Assembly: GCA_027451405.1 (NCBI GenBank)
Contig: DAIDJM010000065.1
Location: forward strand, 1-64,000
Direction: 5' to 3'
DNA: 64,000 bases
From: Acetobacteraceae bacterium
GTDB lineage: Bacteria; Pseudomonadota; Alphaproteobacteria; Acetobacterales; Acetobacteraceae
Made by a program: the position numbers and the translations under genes
Shown here: piece by piece, positions 1 to 5,238 of the stretch
Numbering within the stretch: position 1 is the stretch's first letter
Layout: the number at the start of each line of letters is the position of its first letter
Notes under the pieces: model-generated
Told to the model about the DNA's origin: nothing
The model's input: the letters and a program-made list of their open reading frames with translations, nothing else
Database searches by the model: none

Positions 1-329
1 AGGAGGCCGAGCGCGTCGCGGGCGAAGGCGCGGGCCCGCGGCAGCTCCTCCCGCCCGAGCGCGCGGGCGTAGACGGGGATGAAGCTCGCGCTCAGGGTCC
101 CCTCGCCGAGGAGGTTCTGGGTGATGTTCGGCAGCCGGAGCGCCGCGCTGAAGGCGTCGGCGACCCAGGAGTTGCCGAAGAAGTGGGCGAAGACGCGCTG
201 CCGGGCGAGGCCCACGAAGCGCGAGAGCAGGATGGCCACGCCCACGACGAAGGCCGAGCGCCCGGTGCGCGCCGGTCTCTCGCGGGCGGGCGGCTTCGGG
301 GGGGCGACCTGCTCGGCGGGGACGGACAC
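1..329 (-). CDS. murJ: MurJ lipid II flippase, N-terminal part (runs off the window)
   Basis: Reading the minus strand from a GTG at 329 gives about 109 residues that match the start of MurJ/MviN, the inner-membrane flippase that moves lipid II outward for peptidoglycan synthesis. Visible family signatures are LLSRFVGLARQRVFAHFFG, then ADAFSAALRLPN and GEGTLSASFIPVYARALG, the conserved first two membrane helices and connecting loop. The rest of the gene lies beyond base 1. It is divergent from the GtrA-like gene at 433. The sequence style (AHFFGNSW, NLLGEGTLSASFIP) recalls MurJ of myxobacteria, Gemmatimonadetes or Acidobacteria more than that of alphaproteobacteria. This supports the view that bases 1 to ~745 do not belong with the rest of the window. 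The family call is firm; the start is less sure. Confidence 0.85.
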   Translation of the reverse strand, partial: MSVPAEQVAPPKPPARERPARTGRSAFVVGVAILLSRFVGLARQRVFAHFFGNSWVADAFSAALRLPNITQNLLGEGTLSASFIPVYARALGREELPRARAFARDALGL

Positions 330-432
330 GGAGCCGCGGTTGTACCGCGCCGCGCAACCTCCTGCCAGATCGAAGACTTTTCGACACGGCGTCCCTTGCC
401 AGACGCTCGACCGCGTGCCAGGATGCGCCGCG

Positions 433-837
433 ATGGAAGCGGTGTTCGAGAGGGTCGGCTGGGAGCCCGTGCGGCTCCGCACCCTCGTCGCGCGCTCCTG
501 GGCGGCCCGCGCCTTCCTTGCCGGCGGTCTCGGCGCCTCGGTCGACCTCGCGCTCGTCGGCACCCTCGTCCACTTCGGCGGCATGCAGCCGATGCTCGCG
601 ACCGCCATCGGCGTGGTGGTGGGCGGCGCGATCAACTTCGGCGCGCAGAAGTACCTCGCCTTCCGCGACCGCGACCGCAACGTCGGCCTGCAGGTGCTCC
701 GCTACGTCTCCGGCTACGGCCTCGCCTTCGTGCTCTTCGAGGCGGTGAATTTCGCCGTCCGGGATCGCCAGCGTGATGCCTTTCAGGATCGGCTTGCTGG
801 GGATCGTGGCGTGGAGGTTGTCGATCTGGAGCATTAA
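433..837 (+). pseudogene. GtrA-like membrane protein, truncated and fused to unrelated sequence
   Basis: The ATG at 433 opens a frame whose first ~104 residues look like the GtrA family (PF04138), small multi-helix membrane proteins linked to polyprenyl-phosphate sugar translocation. Features seen are FLAGGLGASVDLALVGTLV (helix 1), a second helix ending near GAINFGAQKYLAFRDRD, and LRYVSGYGLAFVLFEA (start of helix 3). GtrA proteins usually run 120-150 residues with four helices, so this copy stops inside helix 3. From about base 745 the frame crosses into antisense sufC sequence, and the last ~30 residues (RDRQRDAFQDRLAG and on) are not GtrA. An earlier ATG at 79 in the same frame overlaps murJ and is not credible. 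Confidence 0.7.
745..834 (-). pseudogene. sufC: sufC 5' fragment (Fe-S cluster assembly ATPase), cut after ~30 codons
   Basis: From ATG at 834 the minus strand encodes MLQIDNLHATIPSKPILKGI followed by TLAIPDGEIH, the typical N terminus of SufC, the ABC ATPase of the SufBCD scaffold complex. The match continues to about base 745 (GEIH) and is then replaced by the GtrA-like sequence, before the Walker A motif. SufC normally directly follows sufB, as here, so the fragment is in its expected operon position. Loss of nearly all of sufC, plus the usual downstream sufD, would probably be lethal. A misassembly or a segmental join is therefore likelier than a natural remnant. The fragment is too short for gene prediction but the match is clear. 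Confidence 0.8.
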
Positions 838-979: not shown

Positions 980-2449
<1,470 letters not shown>

Positions 2450-2471: not shown

Positions 2472-2912
2472 TCAGACCGGCTGCAGGACAGGCTGGCTGC
2501 CGCAGGCGCGGCGGGGGCGGGCGGCGGCGAGGTCGGCGAGCGAGACTTGCGCGAGCGCCTCGCGGACGGCGCGGTTGACGGGATCCCAGCCGCCATGGAT
2601 CGGGCAGGCATGCGAGGCGTCGCAATCGCCGCCTTCGACACAGGCGGTGAGCGCGATCGGGCCGTCGATCGCGGCGATCACTTCGGCGACGTCGATCGCG
2701 GCGAGCGGGCGGGCCAGGCGATAGCCGCCGCGCGCGCCGCGCTGCGACAGGACGAGCGCCTGGGCGGCCAGAAGCTTCAGGACCTTGGCGACCGTGGGCT
2801 CGGGGATCGCGGTCGCGGCGGCGATGCCGGGCGCGGTCTGCACCATGTCGCCCCGCGCCAGGCTGACCAGGACCACGACCGCGTAGTCGGTGAGTTTGGA
2901 GAGGCGGAACAT
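2472..2912 (-). CDS. Rrf2-family Fe-S regulator of the SUF operon (IscR-like)
   Basis: This 146-residue winged-helix protein starts [19 protein letters not shown], the Rrf2 signature. The recognition helix region is [12 protein letters not shown], and the wing carries [14 protein letters not shown]. Cys91, Cys97, Cys103 and His106 keep the C-x5-C-x5-C-x2-H spacing that ligates the [2Fe-2S] cluster in IscR. The family (SUF system regulator, IscR/SufR-like) represses or activates Fe-S biogenesis genes according to cluster occupancy. Its place as first gene before sufB agrees with autoregulation of the operon. A 15-bp palindrome just upstream is a candidate operator. The start ATG at 2912 is supported by the conserved N terminus. 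Confidence 0.93.
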
Positions 2913-4923: not shown

Positions 4924-5041
4924 CTTCTTTTTCTGAAGAAAAAGAAGCAAAAAGACTTTTGTTCGTTTGGGACGAGGCGGTTGAACAGCTTCGTTCCATA
5001 CGGATAAAGTCTTTTTGGTTCTTTTTCTTCAGAAAAAGAAC
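4924..5041. repeat. AT-rich paired-hairpin element, copy 2
   Basis: The left hairpin (4924-4947) has arms CTTCTTTTTC/GAAAAAGAAG. The right hairpin (5018-5041) has arms GTTCTTTTTC/GAAAAAGAAC. Between them are CAAAAAGACTTTTGTTCG, a GC-rich stem (GGGACGA with TCGTTCC) and GATAAAGTCTTTTTG. It follows the stop of the MmyB-type regulator by 34 bases. The opposite end abuts a copy of the accC 3' tail. Together with copy 3 it forms a tandem duplication with a period of 197 bases. Confidence 0.9.
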
Positions 5042-5080: not shown

Positions 5081-5120
5081 GCGTGGAGCGGCCTTGGGGT
5101 TGGGAGTAAGAAAAGGGATT

Positions 5121-5238
5121 CTTCTTTTTCTGAAGAAAAAGAAGCAAAAAGACTTTTGTTCGTTTGGGACGAGGCGGTTGAACGGTTTCGTTCCATACGG
5201 ATAAAGTCTTTTTGGTTCTTTTTCTTCAGAAAAAGAAC
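5121..5238. repeat. AT-rich paired-hairpin element, copy 3
   Basis: Nearly identical to copy 2, with its left hairpin at 5121-5144 and right hairpin at 5215-5238. The right hairpin ends 5 bases beyond the accC stop codon. It lies between the converging regulator and accC genes, where a bidirectional terminator would be expected. Confidence 0.9.

Follow-up and report, generated by a model that had tools for sequence, protein, structure and literature searches.

The apparent fusion of foreign genes to sufC in this genome is almost certainly a contig-end misjoin in a metagenome-assembled genome, with no rearrangement of the SUF operon to explain. The window analyzed here, a stretch of 64,000 nucleotides, was located by a search of its own genome to contig C65 (C65:1-64000), one of 67 contigs in a 3.37 Mb draft that is 97.7% complete. 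The window and the contig begin at the same base, and the feature therefore sits at a contig end and is not an internal insertion. The sequence switches sharply at 744/745, and the two sides derive from different organisms, bases 1-744 from Myxococcota and those from 745 onward from the host family. The initial annotation had proposed a junction near base 745, and this position was confirmed, as the SufC N-terminus on the minus strand and the GtrA part on the plus strand both stop there. Its reading of the minus strand from 834, as roughly 30 N-terminal SufC residues up to GEIH, agreed with the translation of 834-745, MLQIDNLHATIPSKPILKGITLAIPDGEIH, beyond which the match to the family ends. 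The coordinates of the features are collected in Table 1.

Table 1. Features at the left end of the window, with the evidence on which each assignment is based.
Feature	Coordinates	Strand	Evidence
Foreign contig tail, Myxococcota-type DNA, almost certainly misjoined to the host contig	1-744		Myxococcales MAG relatives; no home elsewhere in the genome; Markov composition
murJ, N-terminal fragment	3-332	-	PF03023 positions 1-61; 86% amino acid identity to Myxococcales bacterium BP4.bin7
gtrA, N-terminal part truncated by the misjoin	433-744	+	PF04138 positions 4-77 of 117; divergent murJ neighbor in BP4.bin7
Host sufC, first 30 codons	745-834	-	Gene continues on C67 to base 1632; joined ORF of 249 amino acids
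Exact overlap with C67 908-972, the true adjacency of both contigs	745-809	-	65 bases identical
Host sufB, upstream of sufC	980-2449	-	79-87% amino acid identity to sufB adjoining sufC in 11 same-family genomes
Host regulator of Rrf2/IscR-like type, preceding sufB	2472-2912	-	ORF and translation; named by eye from sequence

The remainder of sufC was found near the start of another contig of the draft, C67, where sufD and a NifU/SufU-like gene come after it. A first DNA search of the genome returned a C67 match of 76 bases at 95%, and close reading gave an exact identity of 65 bases (window 745-809, minus strand, with C67 908-972), on either side of which the two contigs diverge. Joining C65 and C67 through these 65 bases restores the interrupted gene and yields a full SufC of 249 amino acids. 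The rejoined protein is colinear with 11 same-family SufC proteins, being 68-80% identical over its length, and has the features expected of this ABC ATPase: an ABC_tran match, a Walker A motif (GPNGSGKS) located on the C67 part, sufB upstream and sufD downstream. No second intact sufC was present elsewhere in the genome, the sole SufC match being that on C67. A single SufB was found, the only other match being the SufD homologue on C67, and the one NifU/IscU-type scaffold also lies on C67; searches with SufB, SufC, and the NifU/IscU-type scaffold recovered no spare Fe-S system. Because SufB, SufC, and the NifU-type scaffold each occur once, it would not be reasonable to conclude that the organism has a broken sufC, and the gene is predicted to be intact in the organism.

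After rejoining, the locus matches the alphaproteobacterial suf operon iscR-sufB-sufC-sufD of same-family genomes in both gene order and protein identities. In all 11 of these genomes sufB precedes sufC, and sufD follows sufC in 10, the remaining locus ending shortly after sufC. From these comparisons, the predicted gene order in the organism is iscR-sufB-sufC-sufD. The spacer between sufB and sufC is repeat-rich and about 145 bases long here, whereas the corresponding gap is about ten bases in several relatives. An intergenic, A/T-run-rich hairpin repeat (GAAGAGTCTTCTTTTTCTGAAGAAAAAGAAG...) occurs at 847-990, 4924-5041, and 5117-5238 of the window. About 50 places in the genome carry this repeat at 75-97% identity, and one copy lies between sufB and sufC.

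The first 744 bases of C65 contain parts of two genes. The minus-strand frame 332-3 encodes the N-terminal part of MurJ (PF03023 positions 1-61 of 451, E 6e-12, by Pfam); this fragment is incomplete because the contig ends at base 1, and not because of a second rearrangement. The plus-strand frame 433-747 encodes the N-terminal part of GtrA (PF04138 positions 4-77 of 117, E 7e-11), in keeping with an earlier description of an incomplete GtrA-like protein starting at 433. The best relative of the MurJ fragment was from Myxococcales bacterium BP4.bin7, with 86% amino acid identity, and further matches were found in Minicystis, Byssovorax, and Sorangium. At the DNA level, the BP4.bin7 MAG matches bases 1-293 with 87.5% identity, and the divergent murJ-gtrA pair recurs in it, with a gtrA of 47% amino acid identity. 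Among 59 other sampled genomes of the host family no relative of this gtrA was found, and a search of the genome itself returned no second home for 1-744. The suggestion that murJ and gtrA were not of alphaproteobacterial type was upheld by database searches that place both in Myxococcota. The third-order Markov score of 1-744 was lower than that of every host 800-bp window tested and fell within the Myxococcota range. The right end of contig C6 scores similarly by this measure, and composition alone would therefore not carry a claim of foreign origin. Judged on its protein and DNA relatives, 1-744 is DNA of a different bacterium, probably a relative of the myxobacteria.

C67 also bears an unrelated tail, of 907 bases, that ends at the same point in sufC, which makes the misjoin a double one. 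C67 1-907 encodes an exported-looking, repeat-rich protein truncated near its beginning, along with the opening portion of another exported-looking protein, export being judged by eye from signal peptides. The repeat-rich protein carries repeated NRQQN...IYxxKHN motifs, and its style presumably resembles that of acidobacterial exported proteins. No Pfam family was assigned to the proteins of this tail, no other copy of the tail was found in the genome, and no plasmid match was obtained. Its relatives are sparse and distant, occurring in two of the 59 other family genomes and in 17 of 298 other sampled genomes of the phylum. Both GC and composition of the C67 tail are host-like, and Markov composition cannot separate it from the host, a point that counts against the misjoin. 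That the two tails were neighbors in one third genome was considered and rejected, as the C67 tail has no relative in the myxococcal loci.

Two biological explanations were weighed against a misjoin. A real foreign insertion into sufC, flanked by a direct duplication of 65 bases and carried by the population or part of it, would have the order sufB, sufC start, 65-base repeat, murJ/gtrA ... C67 tail, 65-base repeat, and rest of sufC. The orientation of the tails and the exact 65-base repeat are the trace that an insertion with target duplication is expected to leave, but several observations make such an event very improbable. Both tails start in mid-gene, gtrA being without its C-terminal part and the exported protein of C67 seemingly without its signal-peptide start, and they consist of gene fragments only (murJ, gtrA, the repeat-rich C67 protein, and the beginning of the second protein). 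The junctions showed no recognizable integrase, transposase, or terminal repeats, as far as can be read from the tails, which are the readable part of what would be a longer insert. The tails are also unlike in GC (73.5% for the C65 tail and 66.7% for that of C67), and neither links to another contig end of the bin. Moreover, the insertion would destroy the only sufC found, in a genome in which a second Fe-S scaffold system was not found.

There is equally little chance that a myxobacterial murJ-gtrA segment was horizontally transferred and recombined into sufC in part of the population, as a strain variant. Although the foreign segment is indeed myxobacterial and its gene arrangement is conserved, it lies exactly at a contig end, its transfer would leave the second tail on C67 unexplained, and the event would be lethal or nearly so unless another sufC exists, none being seen in the genome. 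The possibility that the SUF operon had truly been rearranged, raised in the initial annotation, found no support. Together, C65 and C67 restore sufC perfectly. The misassembly that the same annotation had favored was corroborated by the Myxococcota murJ and gtrA and by the rejoining of sufC through the exact 65-base overlap.

Comparison of the contig ends of the bin revealed ten pairs with an overlap of exactly 141 bases. Such overlaps are the signature of a de Bruijn metagenome assembly with k=141, and this value of k points to a MEGAHIT-type assembler. A dispersed G+C-rich palindromic repeat of a second kind, GGGGTCTGGGGCCTTTCGGCCCCAGCGG...CCGCCGGAGGC, is common to many contig ends. Contigs C3 and C41 have a pair of isocitrate dehydrogenase genes at their right ends, within which there is a 65-base identical stretch. 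The idea that 65 bases was an assembler constant was discarded, as this second 65-base identity belongs to paralogues that are 82% alike over 760 bases.

Under a misjoin, the assembler path would have broken within the initial 100 bases of sufC, leaving two dead ends. Their overlap of 65 bases is shorter than the final k of 141, and the path may not survive at that k. Extension of the C65 dead end would then have added about 744 bases from a Myxococcota murJ/gtrA region, and extension of the C67 dead end about 907 bases from another locus. Thin coverage probably caused the break; the 50-copy hairpin repeat, which begins about 40 bases beyond the 65-base overlap, possibly contributed by thinning or tangling coverage. 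The wrong joins were presumably made by chimeric reads or by local extension. Two misjoins within 65 bases of each other would need a shared cause, for which a coverage gap is the likely candidate. All seven assemblers in one published test produced chimeric contigs of species with low to intermediate coverage (PMC7881036). The present case is like other inter-genome chimeric contigs of short-read metagenome assemblies in its foreign contig-end tail, its sharp non-homologous junction, its true partner in the same bin with a short exact overlap, and the k=141 overlaps at other contig ends. Unlike the usual case, it has a pair of misjoins that flank a single 65-base stretch.

Trimming or masking is advised for C65 1-744 and C67 1-907, after which the contigs should be joined. 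Without this correction, annotation would show sufC as truncated and fused and would credit this genome with two foreign genes. The significance of the case is that of a quality note only.
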